Assembly: GCF_004011835.1 (NCBI RefSeq) | Contig: NZ_RKLN01000005.1 | Location: 310,001-374,000, forward strand | Origin: Rhodococcus spongiicola | Lineage (GTDB): Bacteria; Actinomycetota; Actinomycetes; Mycobacteriales; Mycobacteriaceae | DNA: 64,000 nucleotides | Direction of reading: 5' to 3' | Part shown: one piece after another, positions 27,371 through 55,406 of the stretch | How the letters are laid out: every line of letters starts with the position of its first letter | Numbering within the stretch: position 1 is the first letter of the stretch | Program-made: the position numbers and the translations under genes | The notes under the pieces: generated by a model | The model's input: the letters and a program-made list of their open reading frames with translations, nothing else | Databases searched by the model: none | Told to the model about the DNA's origin: nothing

Positions 27371-27408
27371 TTACCGACAGGTAGAAAATGTAAGTTACTA
27401 GCGGGTAA
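27371..27408. promoter_or_regulatory. two copies of the TTACY-N4-RGTAR operator, etfD promoter
   Basis: TTACC-GACA-GGTAG at 27371-27384 and TTACT-AGCG-GGTAA at 27395-27408 both fit the palindrome TTACY-N4-RGTAR. The second is extended to AAGTTAC/GTAACTT arms (27392-27398 and 27405-27411). They lie 77-114 bases before the etfD start. The same motif occurs before fadE5 and in the fadA2/fabG4 divergent region, with a one-mismatch copy before the tetR gene at 54764, which makes that TetR the best candidate ligand. Confidence 0.7.
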
Positions 27409-27484
27409 CTTGGGAGCGGTTACGATCTGTGGCTGAGCTGAACCCAGGCGGCACGTGTGCTGCCCCGAAACGAAAGGCCTCGAC

Positions 27485-30400
27485 ATGAACGCCCTGACGA
27501 TCACGTTGGGCACAATCGGCGTGCTATTGAGCATTCCCGCGTGGGGGTCATTCTTCCTCGGCGTGTGGAGGATCGTCAGCGCCATCCGGGTCGGTCAGCC
27601 CGCCCCAGACCGTTGGCGGCCGTTCTTCCCGCGATTCAAGCAAATGGTTGCGGAGATCTTCGCTCACACCCGTATGAGCAAGTTCCGAACTGTCGGCTGG
27701 GCGCACTGGCTTGTCATGATCGGCTTCTTGCTGGGATCGATCGTTGCGATGGAGGCCTACATCCAGACCTTCAACCCGCAAGGAGGCTGGCCACTCATCG
27801 GCGGAACCGCCGTCTACCACTTCGTCGATGAATTGCTGGGAATCGGCACCGTCATCGGCATCATCGCCCTGGTCATCATTCGCCAGCGGAACCACCCACG
27901 CGGACCCGCTCGGCTCTCACGGTTCAGTGGCTCCAACTTCCGCGCCGCATACTTTGTCGAAGCAGTCGTCCTCATCGAGGGCCTGGGCATGATCCTCGTA
28001 AAGGCCGGCAAGATTGCCACCTACGGGCACGCCAATCCGTGGACCGACTTCTTCACCATGCGCGTCGCCGAGCTCATCCCGGGTAGCCCCGAACTTGTCT
28101 CTGTGTTCGCGTTCGTCAAGCTGATGTCCGCCATGGTGTGGCTGTACATCGTCGGCCGGAACATCAATTGGGGTGTCGCTTGGCACCGCTTCTCCGCGTT
28201 CTTCAACATCTACTTCAAGCGTGAGGACGACGGTGACGTCGCTCTGGGTGCGGCGAAGCCGATGATGTCCAAGGGTCGCGCGCTCGACATGGAGAACGTC
28301 GACCCCGACACCGACACTCTCGGTGCCGGCCGGATCGAGGACTTCTCGTGGAAGGGTTGGCTGGACTTCACCACCTGCACCGAGTGCGGTCGCTGCCAAT
28401 CGCAGTGCCCCGCATGGAACACCGGCAAGCCGCTGTCGCCGAAGCTGTTCATCATGTCCCTGCGCGACCACGGTTCCGCCAAGGCCCCGTACCTGTTGGC
28501 GGGAGGCCGCAAGGACATGGGCGGCGACGAGGTCGGCCTGGTAGACGCCGAGGGCAAGGTCCTCGAGGACAAGCTCGCCGCGATCCCCGAGGCCGCCCGC
28601 GCCGAGGCCGAGCGTCCCCTGGTCGGCGAGTCGGTCGAGGGTGAACTCGGCGGCATCATCGACCCCGAGACCCTGTGGTCCTGCACCACGTGTGGTGCAT
28701 GTGTCGAGCAGTGCCCGGTGGACATCGAGCACGTCGACCACATCATCGACATGCGCCGCTACCAGGTCCTGATCGAGTCGGACTTCCCGTCCGAGCTCGC
28801 GGGTCTGTTCAAGAACCTCGAAAACAAGGGCAACCCCTGGGGCCAGAACGCCAAGGACCGCCTGAACTGGATCAACGAGATGGACTTCGAGATCCCGGTC
28901 TATGGCCAGGACGCGGATTCCTTCGAGGACTACGAGTACCTGTTCTGGGTCGGCTGCGCCGGCGCCTACGAGGACCGCGCCAAGAAGACCACCAAGGCTG
29001 TCGCCGAACTGCTGGCGACCGCGGGCGTGAAGTTCATGGTCCTCGGCGCCGAGGAGACCTGCACCGGCGACTCGGCCCGCCGAGCGGGCAACGAGTTCCT
29101 GTTCCAGCAGCTCGCCATGCAGAACATCGAGCTGTTGAACACGGTGTTCGAAGGCACCCCGGACAACAAGCGCAAGATCGTCGTCACGTGTGCGCACTGC
29201 TTCAACGCACTCGGCAACGAATACCCGCAGGTCGGCGGCGCCTATGAGGTCGTCCACCACACCCAGCTGCTCAACCGCCTGGTGCGGGCGAAGAAGCTCG
29301 TCCCCGTCGCCAAGCTCGAGGAGAACGTCACCTACCACGACCCGTGCTACCTGGGCCGTCACAACAAGGTGTACGACGCGCCGCGTGAACTGATGGAGGC
29401 GTCGGGCGCAAACCTCACGGAGATGCCACGTCACGGCGAGCGTTCCATGTGCTGTGGCGCCGGTGGTGCCCGCATGTGGATGGAGGAGCAGCTCGGCAAG
29501 CGCATCAACGTCGATCGCGTCGACGAGGCCCTCACCACGCTGGGTGGGAACGGGGCATCGCCCCAGGGTGCATCGACACAGAAGATCGCGACGGGCTGCC
29601 CGTTCTGCCGCGTCATGCTCACCGACGGCGTCACCGCCCGCCAGGAGCAGGGCCAGGGCGAGGGAGTGGAGGTCGTCGACGTCGCGCAGATGATGCTCGA
29701 ATCCGTCACGCGTCTCGATCCCGAACAGCTGACCGCGAACATCAAGGTCGAGCGGCGCGAGAAGGTTCCGGCCGCCACACCGGCTGCGGCCGAGGCTGCC
29801 GCAGCGCCCGCCGCTCCGGCGTCCGAACCCGAAGCCGCTCCGGCGGCCGAACCCGAAGCTGCTCCGGCCGCGGAGGCCGCTCCGGCCCCTGCCGCAGCAC
29901 CGGCGAAGGGCAAGGGCCTGCAGATGAAGGGTCTGGCCAAGGCGCCGGGCGCGAAGGCACCCGGCGCGAAGGCACCCGGCGCGAAGGCACCGGGAGGCAA
30001 GGGCCTGCAGATGAAGGGCGCCGCCAAGGCACCCGGCGCAAAGGCCGCCACGCCGGCACCCGCCGAACCGGCCGCCGATACGCCTTCGGCCCCGGCAGCA
30101 CCGGCCGCCAAGCCCGGTGGACTCGCCATGAAGGGCGGGGCGAAGGCACCCGGCGCGAAGGCACCGGGAGGCAAGGGCCTGCAGATGAAGGGTGGAGCCA
30201 AGGCACCCGGCGCGAAGGCCGCCACGCCTGCACCGGCCGCTGAAGCACCGGCCCCGGCCGCCGAGACGCCTGCGGCCCCGGCTGCTCCCGCGACACCGAC
30301 GGCCAAGCCCGGCGGACTCGCCATGAAGGGCGGAGCCAAGGCACCCGGCGGCAAGGGCCTGCAGATGAAGGGCGGAGCGAAGGCACCCGGCGCCAAGACT

Positions 30401-30556
30401 GCACCGGCACCGGCACCCGAGCCCGAGAAGCCCGCCGAGCAACAGGCAGAGGACGCTTCACCGGAACAGGAGGCGTCGAACACGCCTCCGCCGCAGGCCA
30501 AGCCCGGCGGACTCGGGTTCAAGGCCGGCGCCAAGGCACCGGGCCGTAAGAAGTAG
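27485..30556 (+). CDS. etfD: membrane-bound Fe-S oxidoreductase EtfD (ETF:quinone link of beta-oxidation)
   Basis: A 1023-residue protein. Residues 1-250 contain about five membrane helices resembling a haem b/NarG-like anchor. Two 4Fe-4S motifs follow (CTECGRCQSQCP near 299-310 and CTTCGACVEQCP near 400-411), then two CCG domains (CAGAYEDR...TCAHC and the second ending MCCGAGGARMW), as in heterodisulfide-reductase/glycolate-oxidase type proteins. The M. tuberculosis homologue Rv0338c was named EtfD because it accepts electrons from acyl-CoA dehydrogenases through EtfBA. The C-terminal tail from about residue 755 is Ala/Pro/Lys-rich with repeats and makes this protein longer than the mycobacterial one. 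ATG after GAAAGG. Two operator-like palindromes lie upstream. Confidence 0.9.
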   Translation: MNALTITLGTIGVLLSIPAWGSFFLGVWRIVSAIRVGQPAPDRWRPFFPRFKQMVAEIFAHTRMSKFRTVGWAHWLVMIGFLLGSIVAMEAYIQTFNPQGGWPLIGGTAVYHFVDELLGIGTVIGIIALVIIRQRNHPRGPARLSRFSGSNFRAAYFVEAVVLIEGLGMILVKAGKIATYGHANPWTDFFTMRVAELIPGSPELVSVFAFVKLMSAMVWLYIVGRNINWGVAWHRFSAFFNIYFKREDDGDVALGAAKPMMSKGRALDMENVDPDTDTLGAGRIEDFSWKGWLDFTTCTECGRCQSQCPAWNTGKPLSPKLFIMSLRDHGSAKAPYLLAGGRKDMGGDEVGLVDAEGKVLEDKLAAIPEAARAEAERPLVGESVEGELGGIIDPETLWSCTTCGACVEQCPVDIEHVDHIIDMRRYQVLIESDFPSELAGLFKNLENKGNPWGQNAKDRLNWINEMDFEIPVYGQDADSFEDYEYLFWVGCAGAYEDRAKKTTKAVAELLATAGVKFMVLGAEETCTGDSARRAGNEFLFQQLAMQNIELLNTVFEGTPDNKRKIVVTCAHCFNALGNEYPQVGGAYEVVHHTQLLNRLVRAKKLVPVAKLEENVTYHDPCYLGRHNKVYDAPRELMEASGANLTEMPRHGERSMCCGAGGARMWMEEQLGKRINVDRVDEALTTLGGNGASPQGASTQKIATGCPFCRVMLTDGVTARQEQGQGEGVEVVDVAQMMLESVTRLDPEQLTANIKVERREKVPAATPAAAEAAAAPAAPASEPEAAPAAEPEAAPAAEAAPAPAAAPAKGKGLQMKGLAKAPGAKAPGAKAPGAKAPGGKGLQMKGAAKAPGAKAATPAPAEPAADTPSAPAAPAAKPGGLAMKGGAKAPGAKAPGGKGLQMKGGAKAPGAKAATPAPAAEAPAPAAETPAAPAAPATPTAKPGGLAMKGGAKAPGGKGLQMKGGAKAPGAKTAPAPAPEPEKPAEQQAEDASPEQEASNTPPPQAKPGGLGFKAGAKAPGRKK
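29904..30556 (+). repeat. Lys/Gly/Ala/Pro tandem repeats in the EtfD C-terminal tail
   Basis: From about residue 807 of EtfD the sequence is built from recurring blocks of KGLQMKG, GGAKAPGAKAPG and KPGGLAMKGGAKAPG, separated by Ala/Pro linkers (PAPAAEAPAPAA). At least five MKG-x-AKAPG blocks are present, the last degenerating to GFKAGAKAPGRKK at the C-terminus. The DNA is repetitive too, so copy number may vary between strains. The tail is strongly basic and probably unstructured and cytoplasmic. Confidence 0.85.
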
Positions 30557-30560
30557 GCAC

Positions 30561-30606
30561 ACACGAAGGCGCCCTCACCGTCCGCGGTGGGGGCACCTTC
30601 GTCTGT
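30561..30606 (+). terminator. hairpin terminator after etfD
   Basis: A long imperfect inverted repeat (30561-30580 with 30585-30606, loop TCCG) starts 5 bases after the etfD stop. Most arm bases pair, including two G-T type pairs. No T-run follows. Confidence 0.7.
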
Positions 30607-30622
30607 GGTCACCGCCGACATC

Positions 30623-30692
30623 GCACACCTTCTGCGCCGATCACACACGGGTTCCGGCCGCAGCCGGGGTGTGACGCCGGCAACGGGTGTGC
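30623..30692. repeat. left flanking half-site array of the AbiEi/DUF559-type gene
   Basis: Four related half-sites occur in mirror order: GCACAC (30623), TCACAC (30641), GTGTGA (30669) and GTGTGC (30687), so the distances between starts are 18, 28 and 18. A second array with almost the same layout lies just after the gene at 31745-31816. The stretches CACACCT, CGATCACA and GTGTGACGCC are shared between the two arrays at identical offsets. Two near-DnaA-box words (ATCCACAGG at 30704 and 30722) follow before the gene. Confidence 0.65.
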
Positions 30693-30791
30693 GCTGCCGA
30701 TGTGATCCACAGGCGTTGAGTCATCCACAGGAGGGCGCGACGACGTCGTGTGAGGCACGGGGCAGATCACGCCGCAGTCCACGATGGCCGC

Positions 30792-31739
30792 ATGGGGGCA
30801 CACATCATCCGGCGCGACGAGGCACTACGACGCGGCGCCGCCGACAGCCAACTACAGCGCCTGTGCCACAAGGGGTCCTGGTACCGGCTACGCCCGGGCG
30901 TGTACACGCCGCGCGAACAGTTCGCGGCGCTGGACGCCCGTGAACGACACATAATTCTGGCCACCGCGGCCCTGCACGCGTCGTCACCGGACGCGGTACT
31001 GAGCCACCAGTCGGCGGCCGCGCTACACGGCCTGGACCTGTGGAACACCCCGATGAAGGCCGTCCACCTGACGCGGAACCGGCGATCAGGTGGACGGCGG
31101 ACCGGACATCGACACGTCCACTCCGCGGCCCTGGACTCCGACGAGGTGACGACGATCGACGGTCTCCGCGTCACCACTGTCGCCCGGACTGTCGTCGACC
31201 TGGCGCGGTCGTTGCCGTTCGAGCAGGCAGTCGTGGCGGGCGATCACGCGCTGCACACCAAGCGGTGCACGTTCCGGGACCTCGAGGCCAGCCGTCCGCA
31301 ATCGGCCCGTCGCAAGGTCGCTCGCGTATCGAGCCAGTTGGACGGGAGATCCGAGAGTGTCGGCGAATCCCGGAGCCGGGTCCTGATGATCCGAGAACAA
31401 TTGCCGATCCCCGACTGCCAGGCGAACCTGTACGCACCCGACGGGGTGCACCTGGGACGGGTGGACTTCTTGTTCGAGGAGTTCGGCGTTGTCGGGGAGT
31501 TCGACGGTCGCATCAAGTACGGCCGACTCGTCCCCGACGGGCAAGTCCCAGCAGACGTGCTGTGGGCGGAGAAGACGCGCGAGGACGCGATCCGGGCCGC
31601 GGGCTGGCAGGTGGTGCGGTGGGGCTGGAACGAACTGTCGACGCCCCACGTGGTCGTCCAGCGGATTCGTGACGCGTTCGAGCGGGCGCGCCTTTCCCCT
31701 CCGCCACGCGGACGCGTCGAGCACACGCCGCAACCGTGA
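30792..31739 (+). CDS. AbiEi-type winged-helix protein with DUF559-like nuclease domain
   Basis: A 315-residue protein of an actinobacterial family usually annotated as AbiEi antitoxin-like/endonuclease-domain protein. Residues about 6-45 form a winged-helix-like start (RDEALRRGAADSQLQRLCHKGSWYRLRPGVYTP), the middle resembles the AbiEi C-terminal region (TTVARTVVDLARSLPFEQAVVAGDHAL), and the end (about 215-295) fits a Vsr/DUF559-type PD-(D/E)xK nuclease: VDFLFEEFGVVGEFDG, then KTREDAIRAAGWQVVRWGWNEL. No AbiEii toxin gene is adjacent. The ATG at 30792 begins just before the helix-turn-helix. The gene is bracketed by two palindromic arrays, suggesting a self-contained unit. Real function is unknown; anti-phage defence or a selfish nuclease are possibilities. 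Confidence 0.75.
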   Translation: MGAHIIRRDEALRRGAADSQLQRLCHKGSWYRLRPGVYTPREQFAALDARERHIILATAALHASSPDAVLSHQSAAALHGLDLWNTPMKAVHLTRNRRSGGRRTGHRHVHSAALDSDEVTTIDGLRVTTVARTVVDLARSLPFEQAVVAGDHALHTKRCTFRDLEASRPQSARRKVARVSSQLDGRSESVGESRSRVLMIREQLPIPDCQANLYAPDGVHLGRVDFLFEEFGVVGEFDGRIKYGRLVPDGQVPADVLWAEKTREDAIRAAGWQVVRWGWNELSTPHVVVQRIRDAFERARLSPPPRGRVEHTPQP

Positions 31740-31744
31740 CCGTC

Positions 31745-31816
31745 ACACACCTGATCCGGCGATCACATACCCATTCAACGGTGAAAGCCCGTGTGACGCC
31801 ATCAAAGGAAGTGTGC
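31745..31816. repeat. right flanking half-site array of the AbiEi/DUF559-type gene
   Basis: It mirrors the left array: ACACAC (31745), TCACAT (31763), GTGTGA (31791) and GTGTGC (31811), with start distances 18, 28 and 20. It begins 6 bases after the stop codon of the nuclease-like gene and ends 20 bases before the S9 peptidase stop. It may also act as terminator for the two convergent genes, but the repeat at the other end of the gene is not explained by that. Confidence 0.65.
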
Positions 31817-31835
31817 CGTCAATCCAACGCGACTG

Positions 31836-33785
31836 CTACGGCCGCCACAGCTCCAGCCGCGGGACGCCGGGCGTCTCGAAGCCGAGGACCTGGCCGTAGA
31901 ACGACAGTTCCGCCTCACGGGCGCTGGCGATCGTCTCGGCCTTCCGGAACCCGTGAGACTCGCCCGCATAGGCGAGGTAGGCGTGCGGAATCTGCTTCCG
32001 TACGAGCGCATCGCGGAACTGTTCGGCCTGCGACGGCGGCACGATCGGGTCCGACAGGCCCTGCAGCAACAGCACCGGACACGACAGTCCGTCGACGTTG
32101 TTGACCGGCGCCCGACGGGTGTACAGGTCGGCGGCCTCCGGTAGCGGGCCGATCAGTCCGTCGACGTACCGGGACTCGAAATCGTGGGTCTCCTTGACGA
32201 ACTCGACCAGTTCGGCGACGCCGTAGTACGACACGCCGCACGCGAATACGTCCGACGTCGTCAACGCCGACAACACGGTCCATCCGCCCGCCGAACCGCC
32301 TTCGATCGCAAGACGATCCGGGTCGGCGAGCCCCGCGTCGGCGAGGCCGCGGACGGCCGCGACGGTGTCCTCGACGTCGACGACCCCCCACTGGCCGCGT
32401 AGCCGGTTTCGGTACTCGCGTCCGTACCCGCTGGATCCGCCGTAGTTCACGTCGACAACGCCGATACCGCGGCTCGTGAAGTACGCATACGCCGGCTGCA
32501 GTGCAGGCGCGACATGTGAGGTGGGCCCGCCGTGCACGAACGCGACGTAGGGAGGCAGTTCGCCGTCCGGGGCGTGGTAGTCGGGGTTGTGGGGTGGGTA
32601 GACGACCGTATGCACCTCGCGCTCCGGACCCTGGAAGGTCAGGGACCGTGCCTCGGGCAGGTAGCTGGTGCCGGGTAGTGCGTCGACCGACAGCCGCACG
32701 TCGGTGAGTGCTCCGGTGTCCAGGTCGAGCACGCGTAGCCCCGGTGCGACCTGTGCTCCGCCACAGCGCAGTAGGACCCGTCGTCCGTCCACGTCGCAGA
32801 TCTGTACCGACGAGATGCCTTCGAGTTCGACATCGCGAAGCGCGCCCGTGGCCGGGACGACAAGGCCCAGCGTGTCGGTGCCGACGGTGCGGGCCGTGAG
32901 GAGGTGGCCATCGTCGAGCACCGTGTACCAGCGGGCACCGAGCTGCCAGAGCGGGGCGCCGAAGTCAGCATCGATCGGGCAGATCGGTTCCACGGCATCG
33001 CCGTTCGCCGCGACGCGGTAGAGGTTCCACCAGCCGGTGCGGTCGCTGATCACGTTCAGGGTGGACGCGTCGACCCATTCGGGCTGCAGCACCGATTCCT
33101 CCGGGCCACCGAGCAGGACGTCGACCTTGCCCGAAGCCAGCGTCAGCACGCGCAGTTCGGTCCCGTCCCAGGGCATCTGCGGATGCTTCCACGCGATCCA
33201 GGCGAGACGCTCGCCGTCCGGCGACAATCGCGGGTAGGCGAGGAAGTCGGAGCCGGCGACGATCGAACGCTGCGTTGCCGGGTTGTCCTCCGCGCGTCCG
33301 TCGAGTGGGATCGCGCAGATGTCGCGCTTCGGCGGCCCGTCGCGATAGGACTCGCGCACACACCACACCTCGTCGCCGACGATCGTGAGATCGCCGTAGC
33401 GATCCGCTGACGGGGTCGGAGGAATCGGCGTGATGGGCACGGGTGCGGCATCGATGGACGGGTCGAACCGGTACAGCCTCTGGTCACTGAACTCCGCGAA
33501 TACCAGCACCCCGTCGGCGGTCACCGCCCACGCTCCGCCGCCGTACTCGTGGACGCGAGTTCGCGCGTTCCACGGCGCGGGCAGGACGTCGCCCGGCTCG
33601 CCGTCCGGGCCGATACGTCTGATGGCGGACCGACCGCCCTCGGTGGGACGCTGTTCCGACCACCACACGGCGTCGGCAGCGAAAAAACCTCCCTCGACCA
33701 TGTGCCCGCTGGCGGCGACGTCGGCGGCGGTGATCGGTGAGATCCACGAACCGTAGCTGGCGACGGTTGATGCGTGATGCGCCAT
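31836..33785 (-). CDS. S9-family prolyl oligopeptidase-like peptidase
   Basis: A 649-residue serine peptidase with an N-terminal beta-propeller (about 1-390, repeating strands such as WWSEQRPTEGGRSAIRRIGPDG and LSPDGERLAWIAW) and a C-terminal alpha/beta-hydrolase domain. The nucleophile elbow is GGSAGGW, the acid follows in LQGLSDPIVPP and the histidine is in GESHGF. Such enzymes cut short peptides, usually after proline or with acyl-aminoacyl/dipeptidyl specificity. No signal peptide, so cytosolic. The start at 33785 is taken at MAHHAST; upstream codons overlap the divergent PPOX promoter and look non-coding. Confidence 0.9.
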   Translation of the reverse strand: MAHHASTVASYGSWISPITAADVAASGHMVEGGFFAADAVWWSEQRPTEGGRSAIRRIGPDGEPGDVLPAPWNARTRVHEYGGGAWAVTADGVLVFAEFSDQRLYRFDPSIDAAPVPITPIPPTPSADRYGDLTIVGDEVWCVRESYRDGPPKRDICAIPLDGRAEDNPATQRSIVAGSDFLAYPRLSPDGERLAWIAWKHPQMPWDGTELRVLTLASGKVDVLLGGPEESVLQPEWVDASTLNVISDRTGWWNLYRVAANGDAVEPICPIDADFGAPLWQLGARWYTVLDDGHLLTARTVGTDTLGLVVPATGALRDVELEGISSVQICDVDGRRVLLRCGGAQVAPGLRVLDLDTGALTDVRLSVDALPGTSYLPEARSLTFQGPEREVHTVVYPPHNPDYHAPDGELPPYVAFVHGGPTSHVAPALQPAYAYFTSRGIGVVDVNYGGSSGYGREYRNRLRGQWGVVDVEDTVAAVRGLADAGLADPDRLAIEGGSAGGWTVLSALTTSDVFACGVSYYGVAELVEFVKETHDFESRYVDGLIGPLPEAADLYTRRAPVNNVDGLSCPVLLLQGLSDPIVPPSQAEQFRDALVRKQIPHAYLAYAGESHGFRKAETIASAREAELSFYGQVLGFETPGVPRLELWRP

Positions 33786-33822
33786 AAGGGACACAGTAGC
33801 GATCGGGACGTACTGTTCACCC

Positions 33823-34236
33823 ATGTCCGCACATCTACCTCGGCGGTTCACCGACGCCCCCGTGGCGCGGATGGCGACGGTGTCGGCGGACGGCACTCCG
33901 CATGTGGTCCCGGTGGTGTTCGTGGTCGTGCGGGACACGGTCTACACCGCGGTGGACGACAAACCCAAGACAACCCGCCGACTGAGGCGTCTGGCGAACA
34001 TCGCCGCGACGGGGCGCGTGAGTCTGCTCGTCGACCACTACGACGACGACTGGGCGCAGCTGTGGTGGGTGCGTGTCGACGGGACCGCGGAGGTGCTGGC
34101 GGCCGACGCCGACGAGTCGACCTCAGCCATCGACGCCCTGGTTGCGAAGTATCGGCAGTATCGGTCGATGCGGCCGTCCGGGCCGGTGGTCGCGATACGC
34201 GTGCTTAGGTGGCGTGAGTGGTCGGCGACGTCGTGA
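33823..34236 (+). CDS. PPOX-class F420-dependent oxidoreductase (TIGR03668-like)
   Basis: A 137-residue split-barrel flavin/deazaflavin-binding protein. The N-terminal FTDAPVARMATVSADGTPHVVPVVFVV and the segment LLVDHYDDDWAQLWWVRVDGTAEVL are the signature of the TIGR03668 subfamily, which is thought to use coenzyme F420, a cofactor of Mycobacteriales. The substrate is unknown. The gene is divergent from the S9 peptidase gene, 37 bases apart. Confidence 0.85.
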   Translation: MSAHLPRRFTDAPVARMATVSADGTPHVVPVVFVVVRDTVYTAVDDKPKTTRRLRRLANIAATGRVSLLVDHYDDDWAQLWWVRVDGTAEVLAADADESTSAIDALVAKYRQYRSMRPSGPVVAIRVLRWREWSATS

Positions 34237-34338
34237 AAGTGGCGTCCCGAAAGTGCGGAACGCGGCGTTTGTCCCCGGCTGTAACACACCTGTTCGTTTG
34301 ACGGTCTTGTGGCACAACGCACATCGGACGACCATGGA

Positions 34339-34344
34339 TATAGT
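34339..34344 (+). promoter_or_regulatory. possible -10 box for the small secreted peptide gene
   Basis: TATAGT lies 28 bases before the ATG at 34372 and would start transcription near 34350, giving a short leader with an AGGAAGCG ribosome-binding site. No correctly spaced -35 hexamer is seen. Confidence 0.4.
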
Positions 34345-34371
34345 GCGCATCGCGCACAGGAAGCGAAGCGC

Positions 34372-34578
34372 ATGTCATCGGAAGCGAAGGTTCCTCTCAT
34401 GACACGCAGAATTTCCGCAGCATTGGCCGCTGTCGCGGTCACACTCTCCCTGGGCGCGTTCGGTGCGCCGGCCGCTTCGGCCGCGTCGTTGTCCGAGGCG
34501 CAGACTCCCGTTCAGGGTTCGGTGGGGCTCTGCCTCGTCATCCCGTTCGGATCGCTGGTGCTCCCGATCTGTCTCTGA
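34372..34578 (+). CDS. small secreted peptide, about 30-residue hydrophobic mature form with two cysteines
   Basis: A 68-residue precursor. Residues 1-37 form a signal peptide (basic n-region, hydrophobic AALAAVAVTLSLGAFGAPA, cleavage near ASA). The mature part is about 30 residues: ASLSEAQTPVQGS, then VGLCLVIPFGSLVLPICL. Two cysteines (C54, C67), 13 apart, could close a loop around the IPFGSLVLP core. The ATG at 34372 has AGGAAGCG upstream; an internal ATG at 34399 would give a shorter signal peptide. It is followed by a strong terminator, so it is a one-gene transcript. I do not recognise a characterised family; a cell-envelope peptide or bacteriocin-like factor is speculation. Confidence 0.65.
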   Translation: MSSEAKVPLMTRRISAALAAVAVTLSLGAFGAPAASAASLSEAQTPVQGSVGLCLVIPFGSLVLPICL

Positions 34579-34602
34579 TCCAGTGCACGCTGCGAAACCC
34601 AG

Positions 34603-34642
34603 GCCCGTTCGGCGGAGCTCACGAGCTCCGCCGCTGACGGGC
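34603..34642 (+). terminator. hairpin terminator after the small peptide gene
   Basis: GGCGGAGCTC (34611-34620) and GAGCTCCGCC (34623-34632) pair perfectly across a 2-base gap, extended by outer arms GCCCGT (34603-34608) and ACGGGC (34637-34642). Confidence 0.75.
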
Positions 34643-34761
34643 TGAGCGCGACGCTCGTTGTGACGCACGCAACACCAAGCCTCCGTCGGAACACCCTCCG
34701 GAGGTGGTATTGGCGCCGGGGGAACATGCCGTTCGATACCCGCTTGCACTCGAGTGCAATC

Positions 34762-44218: not shown

Positions 44219-44837
44219 ATGGATGCGCGGGAGTGGGACGAACGGTATTCGCAGACCGACATGGCCTGGGGTGCGCCACCGAACCCGGTGGTCGTGGAGT
44301 TCGTGACATCACTGCCCGCCGGTCGGGCGCTGGACCTCGCGTGCGGGGAGGGCCGACATGCGCTGTGGCTGGCGACACGAGGGTGGCAGACCACCGGGGT
44401 CGACTTCTCGCCGGTGGCCGTGGAGAGGGCCCGGAAGATAGCGGCGCAGGCGCCGCGTTCGGTGCGCGAACGCCTCAGCTACGCGGTTCGACGACATCAC
44501 CACGACGAACGCCCTGGACGCCAAATACGACCTGATCCTGATGCTCCACGTCCATGTCGAACCCTCTCGGCACCGCGCAATTGTGAGCCGGATCATCGAC
44601 GCCCTCGAACCCGAGGGGATCCTCATGATTCTCGACCACGAGACGATGGACCACGCGCATGGCGCTGGTGGACTGCCTGATCCCGAATTACTCTACTCAC
44701 CAGCAGATTTGAAGGATGAAGTCGGTGGGCGACTCGACGTGACGGTCGCCGAGAGGCGCCATCGGGACACCGATGGCGGACCAGCGGTCGACGCGCTCCT
44801 GGTCGCGCGCAGGCCCGTATCTTGGCAGCTAACTTAA
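44219..44837 (+). pseudogene. class I SAM-dependent methyltransferase with a frameshift
   Basis: Two frames together make one methyltransferase of about 205 residues. The first part (from ATG 44219) has LDLACGEGRHALWLA (SAM motif I) and VDFSPVAVERARKIA. The frame breaks at the TT pair 44487-44488: reading with one T less continues as AVDDITTTNALDAKYDLILMLHVHVEP, then IIDALEPEGILMILDHE and ends with VDALLVARRP. Both halves are family-like and the combined length is normal. It is therefore a real single-base frameshift (a fresh pseudogene) or a sequencing error. Substrate unknown. Confidence 0.75.
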
Positions 44838-44858
44838 TCTTGAGTAACATCGGGTAAG

Positions 44859-44872
44859 TTACCGACGAGTAG
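44859..44872. promoter_or_regulatory. TTACY-N4-RGTAR operator before fadE5
   Basis: TTACC-GACG-AGTAG fits the palindrome seen before etfD and at fadA2/fabG4. The 15-base word starting one base earlier (44858-44872) matches the etfD-upstream word at 27370-27384 at 13 of 15 positions. It lies 62 bases before the fadE5 ATG, and further TAACTTA/TAAGTTA words at 44830-44861 flank it. Confidence 0.7.
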
Positions 44873-44934: not shown

Positions 44935-46770
44935 ATGGGCCACTACAAGAGCAACGTCCGCGACCTCGAATTCAACCTCTTCGAGGTACTGGGCCTGGAC
45001 AAGCCGCTGAGCGAGGGCGTGTGGGGTGACCTCGACACCGACACGGTCAGGGAGATGCTGTCCGAGGTCGCGCGTCTCGCGGAGGGCCCGCTCGGTGAGT
45101 CTTTCGCCGACGCCGACCGCAACCCGCCGGTCTACGACCCCGAGAAGTTCGAAGCGACCCTGCCGGAGTCGTTCAAGAAGTCGTTCAAGGCGATGTGGGA
45201 CGCCGAGTGGTACCGGATGGGCCTGAGCGAGGAGATCGGCGGCGTGCCGGTCCCGCGCGCCATCGTGTGGGCCATCGCCGAGATGCTGCTCGGCGCACAG
45301 CCCGGCGCCTTCATGTTCGGCGCCGGCCCGTCGTTCGCGAACGTCCTCTACAACAACGGCACCGACGAGCAGAAGAAGTGGGCCGCAACCCTCGTCGAGC
45401 GCGGCTGGGGCGCCACGATGGTGCTCACCGAGCCCGACGCCGGCTCCGACGTCGGTGCGGGACGCACCAAGGCAATCCAGCAGGCGGACGGCACGTGGCA
45501 CATCGAGGGCGTCAAGCGCTTCATCACCTCGGCCACTTCGGACGACCTGTTCGAGAACATCTTCCACCTCGTCCTCGCTCGCCCCGAGGGCGCCGGACCG
45601 GGTACCAAGGGCCTCTCCCTGTTCTTCGTCCCCAAGTTCCACTTCGACTTCGAGAAGAACGAACTCGGCGAGCGCAACGGTGTGTTCGTCACCAACGTCG
45701 AGCACAAGATGGGCCTGAAGGTCTCCACGACCTGCGAGCTCACCTTCGGTGGTCACGGCACCCCGGCCGTCGGCTGGCTCGTCGGCGAGGTCCACGACGG
45801 CATCGCGCAGATGTTCGACGTCATCGAGCACGCCCGCATGATGGTGGGCACCAAGGCCATCTCGACCCTGTCGACGGGCTACCTCAACGCGCTCGACTAC
45901 GCCAAGCAGCGCGTTCAGGGCTCGGACCTGACGCAAATGACCGACAAGACCGCCCCGCGCGTCACCATCACCCACCACCCCGACGTGCGCCGCAGCCTGG
46001 CGCTACAGAAGGCCTACGCCGAGGGCCTGCGCGCGGTGTACCTGTACACCTCCGCGCACCAGGACCCGGAGATGGCGAAGCTGGTGTCGGGCGCCGACGA
46101 GCAGATGGCGCACCGGGTCAACGACCTGCTGCTCCCGATCGTGAAGGGTGTCGGCTCGGAGCGGGCCTACCAATACCTGGCCGAGAGCCTGCAGACCCTG
46201 GGTGGCTCTGGCTTCCTGCAGGACTACCCGATCGAGCAGTACATCCGCGACTCGAAGATCGACTCGCTCTACGAGGGCACCACCGCAATCCAGGCGCAGG
46301 ACTTCTTCTTCCGCAAGATCGCCCGCGACCGCGGCGTCGCGCTCGCCCACGTGGCCGGCGAGGTCAAGAAGTTCGTCGACAGCGAGGCCGGCAACGGTCG
46401 CCTCAAGGCTGAGCGCGCCCTGCTCTCGACGGCGCTCGAGGACGTCCAGGCGATGGCCGCCACCCTCACCGGCCACCTCATGGGTGCGCAGGAGCAGCCC
46501 ACCGAGCTGTACAAGGTCGGCCTCGGGTCAGTCCGCTTCCTGATGTCCGTCGGCGACCTGCTCATCGGCTGGCAGCTGCTGCGCCAGTCCGAGATCGCCA
46601 TCAAGGCGCTCGACGAGGGCGCATCGGACAAGGACAAGGCGTTCTACGAGGGCAAGATCGCGACCGCCTCGTTCTTCGCGAAGAACGTCCTGCCCGAGCT
46701 GACCGCGACCCGCACCATCCTGTCGCACCTCGACAACGACATCATGGAGCTGGACGAGGCAGCGTTCTGA
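44935..46770 (+). CDS. fadE5: acyl-CoA dehydrogenase FadE5
   Basis: A 611-residue FAD acyl-CoA dehydrogenase of the larger FadE5 type, which introduces the first double bond in fatty acyl-CoA beta-oxidation. Visible are [18 protein letters not shown] (FAD/substrate loop), KRFITSAT, the mid-domain [11 protein letters not shown] and the C-terminal [19 protein letters not shown] of the catalytic glutamate region. Length equals the mycobacterial FadE5 (Rv0244c), which handles a broad range of chain lengths. Electrons leave via ETF to EtfD. The ATG has GGGAGAGAAG upstream. Confidence 0.95.
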
Positions 46771-46783
46771 GCTGAGCTCCGAC

Positions 46784-46900: not shown

Positions 46901-47647
46901 CTATGGCACGGTGAGCGCGGGTACGACGGCGTCGATGCGTTCTGCCAGAACGTGCTGCCCGTCATCAGTGGGGTGCACCGAGTCGTCCTGTATCAGCTCC
47001 GGGCTGTCCAACCAACTCAGCTCGAGCGCGTCCACGAACGGCAGGCCGGCTGCTTCAGCGGCCAGGCGTGTCCCTTCGTTCGCAACTTCGACGGCATAGG
47101 ACGGCTCGCTGGAATCCCACATCGGGCCGATCACGACGATGGTGGCGTTGGGGGCCTTCGCTTTCAGGTCCGAGAACATGGCGGAAGCGATGGGCTCGAC
47201 GTCGCCGGGGATGGTCTGATCGTTCCGGCTTCCAGCCACGATGATGATGTCGGGACTGTTCGCAGTCGCTGCATCGACCTTGGTGGGAAACGCCGCCTCG
47301 CCATCAGGTCCACTGACCGTGTATCCAGTTCCTTCGGTGGCCACATTGTCGAGCTGCCAGCCGCGCTTCTCGGCCAGGAGTTGCGGCCACGCCACCGTGT
47401 TCCCTACACCTGCCGAGTACGAGCCCCCGATGACCGCAAGGCGTGCTGTCGGCGCTTCGGGGTCGTTGGGGCCGACCCCGGTGTTTGGGGTGTATGTGCC
47501 GGCGTAGGAGGTGGAAGGACCCCTCTCCCCAGCTGCCCAGTACATGCCGACCGCAGCGATCAGCGCGGCGGCCACGAACCCCCAGAAGATCTGGTTCTGA
47601 CGGGAGGGCGATGGCTTCGGTCCCCGTCGGTGAAGTCGATTCCCCAT
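46901..47647 (-). CDS. membrane-anchored SGNH/GDSL hydrolase
   Basis: A 248-residue esterase-like protein with an N-terminal membrane anchor (about 20-40, IFWGFVAAALIAAVGMYWAA) and an extracytoplasmic SGNH domain. Catalytic blocks: serine in VIGGSYSAGVG (block I), asparagine in AGSRNDQT (block III) and Asp/His in DSVHPTDDGQ (block V). Substrates of such proteins are often acylated glycans or lipids of the envelope. It is transcribed toward the fadE5 terminator. Confidence 0.85.
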   Translation of the reverse strand: MGNRLHRRGPKPSPSRQNQIFWGFVAAALIAAVGMYWAAGERGPSTSYAGTYTPNTGVGPNDPEAPTARLAVIGGSYSAGVGNTVAWPQLLAEKRGWQLDNVATEGTGYTVSGPDGEAAFPTKVDAATANSPDIIIVAGSRNDQTIPGDVEPIASAMFSDLKAKAPNATIVVIGPMWDSSEPSYAVEVANEGTRLAAEAAGLPFVDALELSWLDSPELIQDDSVHPTDDGQHVLAERIDAVVPALTVP

Positions 47648-47761
47648 AGGCGGACATCATGCAGCACGCCTGAAGTGTCACTGCGTGGGGTCCTCCCTGC
47701 CCGCGGGCCTACCGACGTCAACGCCCCTCGCACGGGAGGACCCGCTCCTTCGCTGGCGGGA

Positions 47762-50224: not shown

Positions 50225-50244
50225 CTTGCGGGACCGTCGCTAAG

Positions 50245-50279
50245 TGTTCGTCCCACTCGTTTCTCTGTTCGTCCCACTC
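50245..50279. promoter_or_regulatory. 14-base direct repeat upstream of the VanW gene
   Basis: TGTTCGTCCCACTC occurs at 50245-50258 and again at 50266-50279, exactly 21 bases (two DNA turns) apart, immediately upstream of the VanW start. Such spacing suits a dimeric regulator on one DNA face. No known regulator could be assigned. Confidence 0.5.
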
Positions 50280-50374
50280 AGGGTAATGGGGACGGACGAC
50301 CATATCGGACGCCGGATCTCCGGCGCTGCGGGCCACCGAGCCGGGTTTGGACAACCTGGGCGGGGACACAGAGC

Positions 50375-50421
50375 GGCACCGTGCCGTTGCCAGGTCGGGG
50401 GTCCGGCAACGACACGGTGCC
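50375..50421 (-). terminator. large hairpin between fadA2 and the VanW gene
   Basis: Arms 50375-50391 and 50405-50421 match at 16 of 17 positions around a 13-base loop. It lies about 100 bases past the fadA2 stop on the minus strand and so could end fadA2 transcription. No T-run. Confidence 0.6.
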
Positions 50422-50520
50422 AACTGGAATATCACTCCCATACGGGCTGCGCGTTACAACTCGATTCAAGATCGGTCTGGTTTGTCCCGATTCGGCCCGT
50501 TTTGTCGGGACCGGGTGGGA

Positions 50521-51858
50521 TCAAACCTCGACGATCGCGGTCACACCCTGGCCACCGGCCGCGCAGATCGAGATCAGGCCACGGCCCGAACCCTTCTCCG
50601 CCAGCATCTTCGCCAACGACGCGACGATCCGACCGCCAGTGGCCGCGAACGGATGCCCGGCCGCGAGCGACGAACCGTTGACGTTGAGCTTGGTGCGGTC
50701 GATCGAGCCGAGCGCACCGTCGAGTCCCAGTCGCTCCTTGCAGTACTCGTCGGACTCCCACGCCTGCAGGGTCGCCAGGACCACGGACGCGAACGCCTCG
50801 TGGATCTCGTAGAAGTCGAAATCCTGAAGCGTGAGGCCGTTGCGGGCCAGCAGGCGAGGCACCGCATACGTGGGCGCCATGAGCAGACCGTCGCCGCCGT
50901 GGATGTAGTCGACCGCGGCGGTCTCGGAATCGACCAGATGGGCGAGCACCGGCAGGTTCCGCTCGGCCGCCCACTCGTCGGTGGACAGCAGCACCGCGGA
51001 CGCGCCGTCGGTGAGAGGGGTCGAGTTGCCGGCCGTCATCGTCGCGTCGCCCAGCTTGTTGCCGAAAACCGGCTTCAGTGTCGCCAGCTTGTCGACGCTC
51101 GAGCCGGGGCGCAGGTTGTCGTCGCGGGTCAGGCCGAGGAACGGCGTGACGAGGTCGTCGAAGAACCCGCGGTCGTAGGCCGCAGCCATGTTGCGGTGGC
51201 TCGCGACGGCCAACTCGTCCTGGTCCTCGCGGCGGATGCCGAACTCCTTGGCGGTGATCGCGGCGTGTTCACCCATCGACAGGCCGGTGCGGGGCTCGCC
51301 GTTGCGCGGGATCTCGATGCCGAGCATCGACGGGCGCACCTGGCCGAGCAGCTTGACCCGGTCGGCCGTCGAACGGGCCCGGTTGACCGACAGCAGGAAC
51401 TCGCGCAGATCGTCGTTCACGCCGATCGGCGCGTCCGACGTCGTGTCGACACCACCGCCGACACCCGCCTCGATGCGACCGGACGCGATGGCGTCCCCGA
51501 CTGCGACGATCGACTGCAGGCCGGTGCCGCACGCCTGCTGCAGGTCGTATGCCGGGGTGTAGGGGCTCAGTGCGCTGCCGAGCACGCACTCGCGCATCAG
51601 ATTGAAGTCCCGGCTGTGCTTGAGCACCGCGCCACCGGCGACCATGCCCAGCCGCTCGTCCTGCAGACCGAACCGGCTCACCAGTCCGTCGAGGGTCGCG
51701 GTGAACATGTCCTGGTTGGATGCGCGCGCGTAGGCGCGGTCCGAGCGTGCGAACGGGATCCGGTTGCCGCCGACGATGGCGACGGGGCGAAGCTGCCGAC
51801 CGCTGGACTTACGTGCGGGTGCCGGCTTCTTGGTGCGGGTACGGGCTTTGCTTGTCAC
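50521..51858 (-). CDS. fadA2: acetyl-CoA acyltransferase (thiolase) FadA2
   Basis: A 445-residue thiolase, last step of beta-oxidation. Nucleophile cysteine in [13 protein letters not shown], second-site histidine in [12 protein letters not shown] and the C-terminal [14 protein letters not shown] with the proton-donor cysteine. A basic N-terminal tail ([19 protein letters not shown]) precedes the fold. The GTG at 51858 has GGAG seven bases upstream and is preferred to an upstream TTG. Divergent from fabG4 across a 38-base palindrome; equals Rv0243 by context. Confidence 0.93.
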
Positions 51859-51905
51859 GTCGGGTCTCCATGAGGAAGGGGCAGGGTTCAATCAGCTTTG
51901 TGCAC

Positions 51906-51943
51906 TCGACATTGAACTTACTCCAGAGTAAGTTCAATGTCGA
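51906..51943. promoter_or_regulatory. 38-bp near-perfect palindrome, core TTACT-CCAG-AGTAA, between fadA2 and fabG4
   Basis: Eighteen-base arms (51906-51923 and 51926-51943) are perfect inverted repeats around a 2-base centre. The core 51918-51931 fits TTACY-N4-RGTAR exactly, and the arms start near 48 bases before the fadA2 start and 80 bases before fabG4. It probably represses both divergent genes when bound by a TetR protein. Confidence 0.8.
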
Positions 51944-52022
51944 TACCGCACCTGACGTAACGGGTGTCGGACCAGCGACAACGCAAGTAATAGAGAAGCC
52001 CAACCGACAAAGAAGGTGGACC

Positions 52023-53369
52023 GTGGCAGCCAGCAAGGGCGCTCCCGACCTCTACTCGCAGTTCCTCTCGTCCGTGCCGGGCGCATTCATCGCAAAACAG
52101 ACCGGGTTGCCGCAGCCGGAAAAGCTGCGCCGGTACAAGGCGGGCGAGCCGCCGCTCGCCGGACCGATTCTCATCGGCGGCAAGGGCCGGCTCGTCGAGC
52201 CGATCCGGGAACTCCTGTCGGACTACCCGACCGCACAGCCGCACGACGATCGCTATGGCGCCCTGGTGTTCGACGCGACCGGCATCGGCCAGGTCACCGA
52301 ACTGGAGCAGCTCTTCGAGTTCTTCCAGCCGGTCATCCGTAACCTCACCACGTGCGCGCGCGTCGTCGTGCTCGGCACCACTCCCGAGTCGGCGTCCGGT
52401 GTCGACGAGCAGATCGCCCAGCGCGCCCTCGAAGGCTTCACCCGCAGTGTCGGCAAGGAGGTCAAGCACGGGTCCACCGCGCAGCTTGTGTACGTCTCGC
52501 CCGACGCGGCGCCGGGCCTGTCCGGCCTCGAATCGACGCTGCGCTTCCTGCTGTCGGCCAAGTCGGCGTTCGTCGACGGCCAGGTCATCCGCGTCGGCGC
52601 CGAGGACGCTGCCGCCCCGGCCAGCTGGGATCGTCCGCTCGAAGGCAAGGTCGCCGTGGTGACCGGCGCGGCGCGCGGCATCGGGGCCACCATTGCCGAG
52701 GTACTCTCCCGTGACGGCGCCCAGGTCGTGTGCGCCGACATCCCGGCCGCCGGCCAGCCGCTGTCGGAGACCGCGAACAAGGTCGGCGGCACGTCGCTGG
52801 CCCTCGACGTCACCGCGCCCGACGCGGCCGACAAGCTCGCCGATCACCTCACCGAACGTCACGGCGGCGTCGACATCATCGTCCACAACGCCGGCATCAC
52901 CCGCGACAAGACGCTCGCGAACATGGACGAGGGCCGCTGGAACAGCGTCATCGGTGTCAATCTCCTTGCCCCGCAGAAGATCACCGATGCTCTTGTCGCG
53001 AAGGGTGTCCTGCGTGAGGGCGGCCGGGTGATCGACGTGTCGTCCATCGCCGGTATCGCCGGTAACCGCGGGCAGACCAACTACGGCACCTCGAAGGCCG
53101 GCGTCATCGGGCTGGTCCAGGCCACGGCACCGGTCCTGGCCGAGAAGAAGATCACGATCAACGCGGTCGCACCCGGCTTCATCGAGACCGCCATGACCGC
53201 GGCCATCCCGTTCGCCACCCGCGAGGCCGGCCGTCGCATGAGCTCGCTGCTCCAGGGCGGAGAGACCGTCGACGTCGCCGAGACGGTCGCGTACTTCGCG
53301 AGCCCCGCGTCGAGCGCTGTCACCGGCCAGATCGTGCGGGTGTGCGGCCAGTCCCTCCTGGGCGCCTGA
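52023..53369 (+). CDS. fabG4: 3-oxoacyl reductase FabG4 (high-molecular-weight FabG)
   Basis: A 448-residue two-domain SDR. The N-terminal flavodoxin-like domain (1-205) lacks the TGxxxGxG motif; the C-terminal SDR domain has VTGAARGIG (214-222), NNAG-equivalent HNAG, and the catalytic YGTSKAG. FabG4 proteins use NADH and reduce 3-oxoacyl-CoA. The GTG at 52023 has GAAGG upstream. Stop and htdX start overlap (TGATG). Confidence 0.93.
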
Positions 53370-54241
53370 TGTCCGGCCGTAAGGACACGGTGGTGCAGCT
53401 GCGCGAGCAGCCCGGCACCCTCGACAACTACGCCCGGGCGGCGTTCAGTGCGCTGCCGTTCGTGAAGCCGTCGGGCCGGAAGAGCCTGCCGAAGGACACG
53501 CTGGCGCTCTCGGGCCTGCGCGTCGACCACGACAACTTGGCCGCCTACGCGAAGGTGTGCGGGCTGCGGTTCGGCGATACCCTCCCGATCACGTACCCGT
53601 TCACGCTGGTGTTCCCGACCGTGATGCGGTTGCTCACCTTGCGCGAGTTCCCCTTCCCCGCAATCGGTTCCGTTCACATCGGCAACCTGATCGAGCAACA
53701 TCGCCCGATCTCTGTGAGCGAACCGCTGGACGTGAAGGTCCGCGCCGAGAACCTGCGACCGCACCCGAAGGGCACCCAGGTGGACCTGGTCAGCGAGGTA
53801 TCGGTGGGCCGCGAACTCGTGTGGCGTCAGGTCAGCTCGTTCCTGAAGATGCACCCCACGGGCGCACCGAAGGAGCCCAAGGCTGAACACGCCGAGGAGG
53901 TCCCACCGCCGCCCACCCGCACCCTGCGGGTGGATCAGAAGACCATCAGCCGGTATGCGGCAGTGTCGGGCGACCGCAACCCGATCCACATCTCGTCGCT
54001 CGGCGCCAGGGCGTTCGGGTTCCCCGGCACCATCGCGCACGGCATGTGGAGTGCCGCCGCGGTGCTGCAGCCGCTCGAGGGACGCCTGCCCGAGGCGGTG
54101 ACCTACGCCGTCCGGTTCGGCAAGCCGATCCTGCTCCCGGCGACGGTGAACCTGTACGCCGACCGCACACCCGACGGGTGGGATCTGTCACTGAAGAATC
54201 CCAAGAAGGGGTACCCGCACCTGAACGCGACGGTGCGCTAG
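53369..54241 (+). CDS. htdX: 3-hydroxyacyl dehydratase HtdX (MaoC/hot-dog)
   Basis: A 290-residue double hot-dog protein. The hydratase 2 motif is in the C-terminal half: YAAVSGDRNPIHISSLGARAFGFPGTIAHGMW with the catalytic Asp and His. It dehydrates 3-hydroxyacyl-CoA after FabG4. The ATG overlaps the fabG4 stop (TGATG), so the two are made together. Equals Rv0241c by context. In the reductive direction the FabG4-HtdX pair could also serve elongation. Confidence 0.92.
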   Translation: MSGRKDTVVQLREQPGTLDNYARAAFSALPFVKPSGRKSLPKDTLALSGLRVDHDNLAAYAKVCGLRFGDTLPITYPFTLVFPTVMRLLTLREFPFPAIGSVHIGNLIEQHRPISVSEPLDVKVRAENLRPHPKGTQVDLVSEVSVGRELVWRQVSSFLKMHPTGAPKEPKAEHAEEVPPPPTRTLRVDQKTISRYAAVSGDRNPIHISSLGARAFGFPGTIAHGMWSAAAVLQPLEGRLPEAVTYAVRFGKPILLPATVNLYADRTPDGWDLSLKNPKKGYPHLNATVR

Positions 54242-54246
54242 CAAAC

Positions 54247-54277
54247 GGGCCGCGGCGGAACCCTGCCGCCGCGGCCC
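54247..54277 (+). terminator. hairpin terminator after htdX
   Basis: Twelve-base perfect GC-rich arms (54247-54258 and 54266-54277) around a 7-base loop, 5 bases past the htdX stop. Confidence 0.8.
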
Positions 54278-54432
54278 GCGGCGGCGCCCTTTCGGCGCGG
54301 GCCGCGCCCTCGTCGTCGCAGCCTCGGCCGGGTTCGGACACCCGGGCCGGGCGCTGAATGTCGTCCTCGTTAGACTCCGCGGGTGGCGCACATCGCGCGC
54401 CCGCGGTCCACGAACCTTACGAGGAGCATTCG

Positions 54433-54723
54433 ATGACCGGCACCACACCGACCCTCGCCCCCCTCGCCGATACCTGGGAATGGCAGCAGCACGGTCTCTG
54501 CCAGGGCATGGACGCATCAGCCTTCTTCCCACCCACCGGCGAACGCGGTAGCGCCCGCATGGTGCGTGAACGGCGCGCCAAGGCGATCTGCAACGCGTGT
54601 CCGGTCATGGCCACGTGCCTCGCGCACTCGCTGGCAGTGCCGGAACCGTTCGGAGTGTGGGGCGGCATGAGCGAGTCCGAACGCGCGGGCTTGCTGCGCG
54701 GACGCCGGCGTGGGGTGGCCTGA
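54433..54723 (+). CDS. WhiB-family Fe-S transcription factor
   Basis: A 96-residue WhiB-like protein. The four Fe-S cysteines are C23 (HGLCQG) and C53, C56, C62 (CNACPVMATC). They are followed by the sigma-A-contacting turn GVWGG (74-78) and a C-terminal basic AT-hook-like tail (RGRRRG). WhiB proteins sense redox or NO through a 4Fe-4S cluster. ATG with GAGGAG upstream. Which of the WhiB subgroups it is cannot be settled by eye. Confidence 0.93.
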   Translation: MTGTTPTLAPLADTWEWQQHGLCQGMDASAFFPPTGERGSARMVRERRAKAICNACPVMATCLAHSLAVPEPFGVWGGMSESERAGLLRGRRRGVA

Positions 54724-54763
54724 CTAGATTCCTCCTTCAAGGGCCGCTCGGTGAGGGTCGCGC

Positions 54764-55360
54764 CTACTTCTTCTTGCCGCCGGCCAGACCCCGCCAGGCG
54801 AGCTTGTCGAGCAGTTCGACAGCGGCATCGACGTCGATCTCGCCACCGGCCACCCGGTCTGCGACGGCCTCCCCCGCCCCGACCAGCGCCACCGCCATGA
54901 TCGAGAAGTCGGTGCCCGGTTCGGGGTCCTTCGTGCTCGACTCGAGCAGCTTTTCCGTCAGTTCGATCAACCGGTCGCGGCTGTTGCCGACCTGAGAAGC
55001 GAACGCCTGCTGGCCGATCGCCTGCCGGTAGAGCACCATCCACGAACTCCGGTGCTGGTCGACGAACCCGAGGAAGCCGGTGAGTGCGGCGCGCAGCTGC
55101 TCGCGCGGGGGCAGGTCGGGATCACCCGCAGGGGAAATGGCCTCGACGAAACGTAGGCCCTCCCGGTGGATGCACGACGCGAACAACTCCTCCTTGGACC
55201 CGTAGTAGAGGTACAGCATCGGCTTGGAGATGCTCGCCTTCGCCGCGATCGAATCCATCGAGGCGTCGTGAAACCCGTTGTCGGAGAACACCTCGACGGC
55301 GGCGTCGAGCATCTGCTGCTCACGCACCGCCCTGGGCAGGCGCTTGGTGCCACCAGCCAT
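54764..55360 (-). CDS. TetR-family regulator, likely repressor of the beta-oxidation regulon
   Basis: A 198-residue TetR protein. The helix-turn-helix is at about 12-58 (AVREQQMLDAAVEVFSDNGFHDASMDSIAAKASISKPMLYLYYGSKEELF) and a ligand-binding helical domain follows; the tail is basic (GGKKK). GGAGGA directly before the ATG at 55360 fixes the start. It corresponds to Rv0238 of M. tuberculosis by context. A near-copy of the fadE5/etfD operator lies in its own promoter (55393-55406), suggesting autoregulation. The inducer would be an acyl-CoA, which is inference. Confidence 0.85.
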   Translation of the reverse strand: MAGGTKRLPRAVREQQMLDAAVEVFSDNGFHDASMDSIAAKASISKPMLYLYYGSKEELFASCIHREGLRFVEAISPAGDPDLPPREQLRAALTGFLGFVDQHRSSWMVLYRQAIGQQAFASQVGNSRDRLIELTEKLLESSTKDPEPGTDFSIMAVALVGAGEAVADRVAGGEIDVDAAVELLDKLAWRGLAGGKKK

Positions 55361-55392
55361 AGTTCCTCCAACCAAGGGTAAGGATGGCTATC

Positions 55393-55406
55393 TTACTCGA
55401 TAGTCA
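55393..55406. promoter_or_regulatory. TetR autoregulation site (one mismatch to TTACY-N4-RGTAR)
   Basis: TTACT-CGAT-AGTCA deviates from the consensus at one base. It overlaps CTATC-TTACTC-GATAG (55388-55403), a second 5-base inverted repeat, and GTAAG/CTTAC (55378-55382, 55392-55396). It lies 33 bases before the tetR start. Confidence 0.55.

Follow-up and report, generated by a model that had tools for sequence, protein, structure and literature searches.

We describe here a short palindrome, TTACY-N4-RGTAR, in a 64,000-nucleotide stretch of the Rhodococcus spongiicola genome (contig NZ_RKLN01000005.1, positions 310,001 to 374,000; this whole stretch is called the window, and coordinates count from its first letter). 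We believe that it is very likely the operator of the TetR-family protein encoded at 54764-55360, a regulator assigned to the FdmR (Rv0238) type which, judging from sequence, would repress genes of beta-oxidation together with the outlet of the electron transfer flavoprotein (ETF) and would be released by acyl-CoA. The motif occurs exactly at four places in the window (27371-27384, 27395-27408, 44859-44872 and 51918-51931) and, 5' of tetR, in one copy with a single mismatch (55393-55406). These five sites had been joined into one candidate regulon in an earlier reading of this DNA, the original prediction; a pattern scan of the window reproduced all of their positions, and the spacing that had been claimed, 33-114 bases between site and start codon, agrees with the sequence. 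Counted on both strands, the window holds six exact strand-hits, compared with a mean of 0.05 and a maximum of 2 in 100 dinucleotide shuffles. The sites and the genes around them are as follows.

27371-27384, unstranded: distal operator-like palindrome of etfD, TTACCGACAGGTAG; exact match, 24 bases to the next site.
27395-27408, unstranded: proximal operator-like palindrome of etfD, TTACTAGCGGGTAA; exact on both strands.
27421-27426, plus strand: putative -10 element of etfD (TACGAT), placed 26 bases after the proximal site begins.
27485-30556, plus strand: etfD, encoding the membrane iron-sulfur oxidoreductase that connects ETF with menaquinone (solved chain 9ojn, E 3.6e-255).
44834-44847, unstranded: degenerate second site of fadE5, TTAATCTTGAGTAA; one mismatch, 25 bases from the exact fadE5 site.
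44859-44872, unstranded: operator-like palindrome of fadE5, TTACCGACGAGTAG; exact match.
44935-46770, plus strand: fadE5, acyl-CoA dehydrogenase (solved FadE5 chain 6kse; equal-length chains such as 6kpt).
50521-51891, minus strand: fadA2, 3-ketoacyl-CoA thiolase (7xly FadA2, E 1.8e-212); coordinates of the open reading frame (ORF), whose true start may lie further in.
51906-51943, unstranded: 38-base inverted repeat TTACTCCAGAGTAA around the site 51918-51931, between the divergent fadA2 and fabG4; unpaired at its centre only.
52023-53369, plus strand: fabG4, 3-oxoacyl reductase (5vp5 FabG4, E 2.2e-187; NCBIfam NF006110 above its cut-off).
53342-54241, plus strand: htdX, hydroxyacyl dehydratase-like, overlapping the end of fabG4; weak NCBIfam HadA/HadB match below the cut-off.
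54764-55360, minus strand: tetR, regulator with TetR_N and TetR_C_46 domains (Pfam), assigned to the FdmR (Rv0238) type; 81% identical to solved chain 3f1b.
55393-55406, unstranded: putative autoregulatory operator of tetR; one mismatch, 33 bases 5' of the tetR start.

The inclusion of etfD, singled out in the original prediction as the part worth testing, proves to be among the best conserved members of the proposed regulon. When promoters of related species were compared, as had been suggested, the two-strand form of the motif, YTACY-N4-RGTAR (YTACYNNNNRGTAR), was found within 400 bases 5' of etfD in 78 of 79 named loci and the reversed control pattern in none; this set consists of those among the best 80 of 534 named EtfD matches that have enough upstream sequence, and it is weighted to near relatives, the nearest by best segment being Prescottella agglutinans at 84% and Rhodococcus at 83% and 82%. 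The one remaining locus (L082) has a one-mismatch site only, and shuffled etfD upstream regions yielded a site in 9 of 3950 trials. At least two exact sites are present in 26 of the 78 promoters, with a spacing of 24 bases in 14 of them, 25 in 10, and 29 and 36 in one each. In addition, 63 of the 78 carry the hexamer TAnnnT exactly 26 bases after the start of the proximal site. In the window this arrangement holds for etfD only; the hexamer at the same distance before fadE5 is TACTAG, which does not fit. A scan for the sigma-70 consensus found no promoter at etfD, so that it is conservation by itself that carries the -10 call. Given a TAnnnT at this distance and the usual spacer, the -35 region would lie inside the proximal site, and the operator would thus cover the inferred -35 region of etfD.

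Similar results were obtained with a panel of 31 genomes, in which sites were sought within 350 bases upstream in a strand-aware manner. An exact site precedes etfD in 25 of 30 loci, and a site precedes 25 of 27 orthologues of tetR (23 exact, 2 with one mismatch); the reversed control gave no exact site at either gene and, with one mismatch allowed, 2/30 for etfD and 3/27 for tetR. Strict palindromes (TTACYNNNNRGTAA) number 310 against 66 for the reversed control across all 31 genomes, and 291 against 47 in the 27 genomes that have the TetR. Sites were inspected in nine of these genomes (G003, G006, G007, G008, G015, G019, G024, G026 and G029), those of G007 coming from a looser pattern and most of the known etfD and tetR sites not being refetched. 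Within this sample a site recurs before the acyl-CoA dehydrogenase gene of locus L008 in nine genomes, before fadA2 in eight (as a strict palindrome), before etfB in seven and before fadE5 in four (a strict palindrome in G006, G007, G008 and G029); fabG4 itself was judged by gene position plus NF006110 and 5vp5 matches. By these comparisons, relatives in Rhodococcus and Nocardia share the site layout, and so does a Mycobacterium. On our best reading, etfBA, which lies outside the window, belongs to the regulon as well, and the whole ETF outlet (EtfBA and EtfD) would be included.

The TetR itself corresponds to FdmR (Rv0238) by its domains, synteny and phylogeny. It matches PF00440 and PF21943, both above their cut-offs, and 27 of the 31 panel genomes each hold a single close orthologue of it (51-100% identity). 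These 27 proteins form one clade with a nearly invariant helix-turn-helix, and FasR types fall elsewhere in the tree; the support of 93/94 is under the level of 95/80 that the tool stars, and the long row G015par joins beside the clade. The neighbourhood of htdX, fabG4, fadA2 and fadE5 around the TetR is common to the window and to G029, whose orthologue is 59% identical. The protein stays below the cut-offs of the NCBIfam equivalog models for FasR (NF053731; 96 bits, cut-off 330) and for Bacillus FadR (NF053878; 45 bits, cut-off 200). The 81% identical solved chain 3f1b is named just a TetR-like transcriptional regulator, and the present analysis suggests a role for it. It had been supposed that a similar mycobacterial TetR may already be described, and this is indeed so: in the excerpts of the literature covered here, FdmR is the mycobacterial fatty acid degradation and modification regulator (PMC12403877, PMC9262360, PMC10701892), a long-chain acyl-CoA-responsive repressor of the corresponding genes (PMC12403877) and a key regulator of fadE5 (PMC9262360), and Rv0238 belongs to a set of five TetR genes conserved in every mycobacterium analysed there (PMC4482099).

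We treat genome G029 as a Mycobacterium on the basis of its EtfD, which over 160 residues shares 75% identity with the solved EtfD from mycobacteria; the next best match stands at 38%. The etfD gene of G029 is preceded by two exact sites 25 bases apart. Strict palindromes are found at fadE5, at fadA2/fabG4, at etfBA and between an acyl-CoA dehydrogenase gene and a P450 gene, and further ones at a fatty acid desaturase, a flavin monooxygenase-like gene and a cholesterol oxidase-like gene (below the model cut-off), and upstream of fas. At fas (L194, 1200-1520), a FasR-like compound element lies closer to the gene than the strict palindrome. The gene order in G029 is tetR-htdX-fabG4-fadA2-fadE5, which matches the Rv0238 to Rv0244c region. 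The order at htdX is equal in G029 and G009; the name htdX for 53342-54241 is carried over from the original prediction. At the divergent fadA2/fabG4 promoters, the 38-base inverted repeat outreaches the 14-base motif, and the same span is found in G009, of the same genus, and only parts of it in eight other genomes. Like this repeat, the degenerate site of fadE5 had not been noticed in the original prediction; its spacing of 25 bases from the exact site is near the 24-base tandem spacing at etfD.

We also scanned the 3.97-Mb, 29-contig assembly that contains the window, with the reversed pattern as control and with ORF calls from a simple GC-frame rule whose start codons are approximate. The genome holds 22 exact sites (32 strand-hits) compared with 9 places (11 strand-hits) for the reversed pattern. 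Under one ORF rule, 5 of 21 exact sites (L004, L006, L008, L015 and L018) lie inside called ORFs, compared with 7 of the 9 control sites (7/9 under the looser rule, 6/9 under the other). The 22nd site (51918) lies within the over-long fabG4 ORF, outside this count, and at L004 and L008 the ORF call probably starts too early, because the Pfam match begins well inside the ORF. The 22 sites make up 19 loci, with three tandem pairs at the thioesterase, isocitrate lyase and etfD. By Pfam and NCBIfam naming, 12 of the 19 loci front beta-oxidation, ETF, acyl-CoA or glyoxylate genes: etfD, etfB, fadE5, fadA2/fabG4, an acetyl-CoA acyltransferase, a second acyl-CoA dehydrogenase, two genes of the enoyl-CoA hydratase type (a phosphorylase gene shares the upstream region of one of them), isocitrate lyase, malate synthase G, a hotdog thioesterase and a multi-domain SDR oxidoreductase that carries a domain of the fatty-acyl-reductase type and whose place among the twelve is the least certain. 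Two further loci belong to central carbon metabolism (NADP isocitrate dehydrogenase and malic enzyme). At isocitrate lyase (L016/L017) the two exact sites are spaced by 23 bases, whereas malate synthase G (L010) has a single one. The original prediction had named an equal frequency of the motif inside genes or before unrelated genes as the outcome that would speak against it. The exact sites do not behave in this way, as the counts in ORFs and the twelve fitting loci indicate, but to the one-mismatch sites the objection would apply: genome-wide they give 251 strand-hits for the motif and 329 for the control, without enrichment. The motif is therefore informative in its exact form only, and a one-mismatch scan is useless for finding the regulon.

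Besides this lack of enrichment and the weighting of the named EtfD set to near relatives, several observations weigh against an FdmR-type operator. Five of the 19 loci in this genome look unrelated (a GntR gene, a biotinyl-domain gene, a saccharopine dehydrogenase-like gene, sodC and a site between two gene ends). Outside the etfD, tetR and fadA2 classes, individual genomic sites may be chance matches. Five of the 30 panel etfD loci are without a site, and four of those five genomes (G003, G012, G016 and G018) have the TetR, while tetR itself is without a site within 350 bases in the Mycobacterium G029 and in G012. Isocitrate lyase (icl) and malate synthase G (glcB) were not met among the palindromes fetched from the nine other genomes. 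Moreover, at E 1e-15, 29 of 55 strict-palindrome loci in seven other genomes match none of the targets of this genome, as do 9 of 15 loci in G029 and 2 of 2 in G002. Finally, no TetR orthologue is found at E 1e-20 in G007, a 99% complete genome in which exact sites nevertheless precede etfD, etfB and fadE5; the closest TetR of G007 is of the FasR type, 59.6% identical to chain 6o6p. Upstream of this FasR-type gene (L256, match 195111-195674), an exact site lies 106 bases before the matched stretch. As a separate observation on the GntR locus (L003), its strict palindrome is flanked by a GntR/FCD regulator gene on one side and by genes of the ribosomal-protein (L3) side on the other.

The case of G007 bears on the question of which protein reads the sites. 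That it is the TetR at 54764-55360, as originally proposed, is favoured by the presence of a site upstream of tetR in 25 of 27 genomes; the assignment is less secure in that a paralogue, FasR, has a related half-site and that the sites persist in one genome lacking the TetR. FasR (Rv3208) is the closest named paralogue and a long-chain acyl-CoA sensor as well. The solved chains 6o6n and 6o6p are FasR. The window's genome has a separate FasR-type gene with 66% identity to the 6o6p chain, whereas the TetR described here has 30%. Conceivably it is FasR, which activates fatty acid synthase in response to acyl-CoA, that reads the sites, alone or alongside the TetR, through the same TTAC/GTAA half-sites, although we judge this quite unlikely. 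The oligonucleotide of the FasR crystal, extended by one flanking base per end, holds a one-mismatch copy of the motif, and this copy and the G007 case, with its exact site before the FasR-type gene, keep a FasR reading of such sites in play; the strict palindrome upstream of fas in G029 points the same way. However, a search of 400 bases that allowed for one mismatch found no site at the FasR-type genes of the window's genome, G008 and G025 or at a more distant one in G004, and the FasR element is longer and compound. In addition, FasR activates synthesis (fas-acpS, as given in the excerpt of PMC7382501), the opposite of what these genes need. The other genomes without the TetR are G002 and G004, which like G007 are 99-100% complete, and G014, which is 66% complete; etfD has a site in G014 and none in G004, and the latter case also speaks against FasR, since G004 has both etfD and a distant FasR-like TetR. 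A broader, speculative and on the whole unlikely possibility is that FdmR and FasR read one TTAC/GTAA operator code, through which acyl-CoA would set both synthesis and oxidation including the ETF outlet, and that in G007 FasR took over the operators of etfD, etfBA and fadE5 and has one before its own gene.

Alternatively, the palindrome could be a conserved promoter or DNA-structure element, or the operator of an unrelated regulator, independent of the TetR gene. The fixed distance to the -10-like element at etfD would fit such an element, and the link between TetR and site is a predicted one. Against this explanation stand the dyad symmetry, the site before tetR in 25 of 27 genomes, the concentration on fatty-acid genes and the synteny with a published acyl-CoA repressor, and we consider it very improbable. 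Chance matches to a short motif are practically negligible as an explanation, despite the one-mismatch motif being no commoner than its control, given six strand-hits where 0.05 were expected in the window, and given sites in 78 of 79 etfD promoters but in just 9 of 3950 shuffles. Taken as a class, the sites of etfD, tetR and fadA2 are too frequent in exact form for chance, which is thereby ruled out for them.

An FdmR-type operator therefore remains our preferred reading, and the system can be placed beside known ones. The original FdmR paper is that of Dong (PNAS, 2021). The likeness to FdmR lies in the TetR family, in a neighbourhood shared with a Mycobacterium genome and in fadE5 as a reported target (excerpt of PMC9262360); the present case differs in its Rhodococcus-type genome and in the sites at etfD, etfBA and glyoxylate genes. 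Bacillus subtilis YsiA/FadR is likewise a TetR-family, acyl-CoA-responsive repressor over beta-oxidation, but of another TetR lineage, as the low score of its model indicates. The YsiA/FadR regulon of B. subtilis includes etfBA and fadF, and its operator differs from the motif described here. FadF is described as a homologue of EtfD that is tied to beta-oxidation (excerpt of PMC13083937). MftR, a further mycobacterial TetR, is described in part of PMC8728441 as sensing long-chain acyl-CoA, but its operator, T-N2-GGCA-N5-TGCC-N2-A, is unlike TTACY-N4-RGTAR. The type of regulator is thus already known and, by analogy, the inclusion of etfD and etfBA has a precedent in YsiA/FadR, which limits the surprise. 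For EtfD, the excerpts of PMC8593149 and PMC13083937 report that M. tuberculosis and M. smegmatis require it for beta-oxidation and that it is under study as a drug target, and those of PMC8593149 give only iron (IdeR) and peroxide responses for its transcription. Among the literature matches listed, we found none joining FdmR with etfD or etfBA, or Rv0238 with Rv0338c, in a search that did not extend to the original FdmR paper; PMC11086914, as far as its excerpt goes, only cites that paper and mentions EtfD separately.

By analogy with FdmR, for which an acyl-CoA effector is published, we infer that the TetR binds these sites as a repressor and has acyl-CoA as its effector. In the model that we favour, a TetR dimer on 5'-TTACY-N4-RGTAA-3', at one or two operators over the -35 region, would block transcription of etfD, etfBA, fadE5, fadA2, fabG4-htdX, further beta-oxidation genes and its own gene and, in this genome, of glyoxylate-shunt genes as well. 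Accumulating long-chain acyl-CoAs would release the repressor, and as a consequence acyl-CoA dehydrogenases would be made at the same time as ETF and EtfD, on which their reoxidation depends. If this is true, it would supply testable operators and suggest a role for the solved chain 3f1b, and an acyl-CoA repressor over both etfD and etfBA would explain how electron-accepting capacity is matched to acyl-CoA dehydrogenase output.

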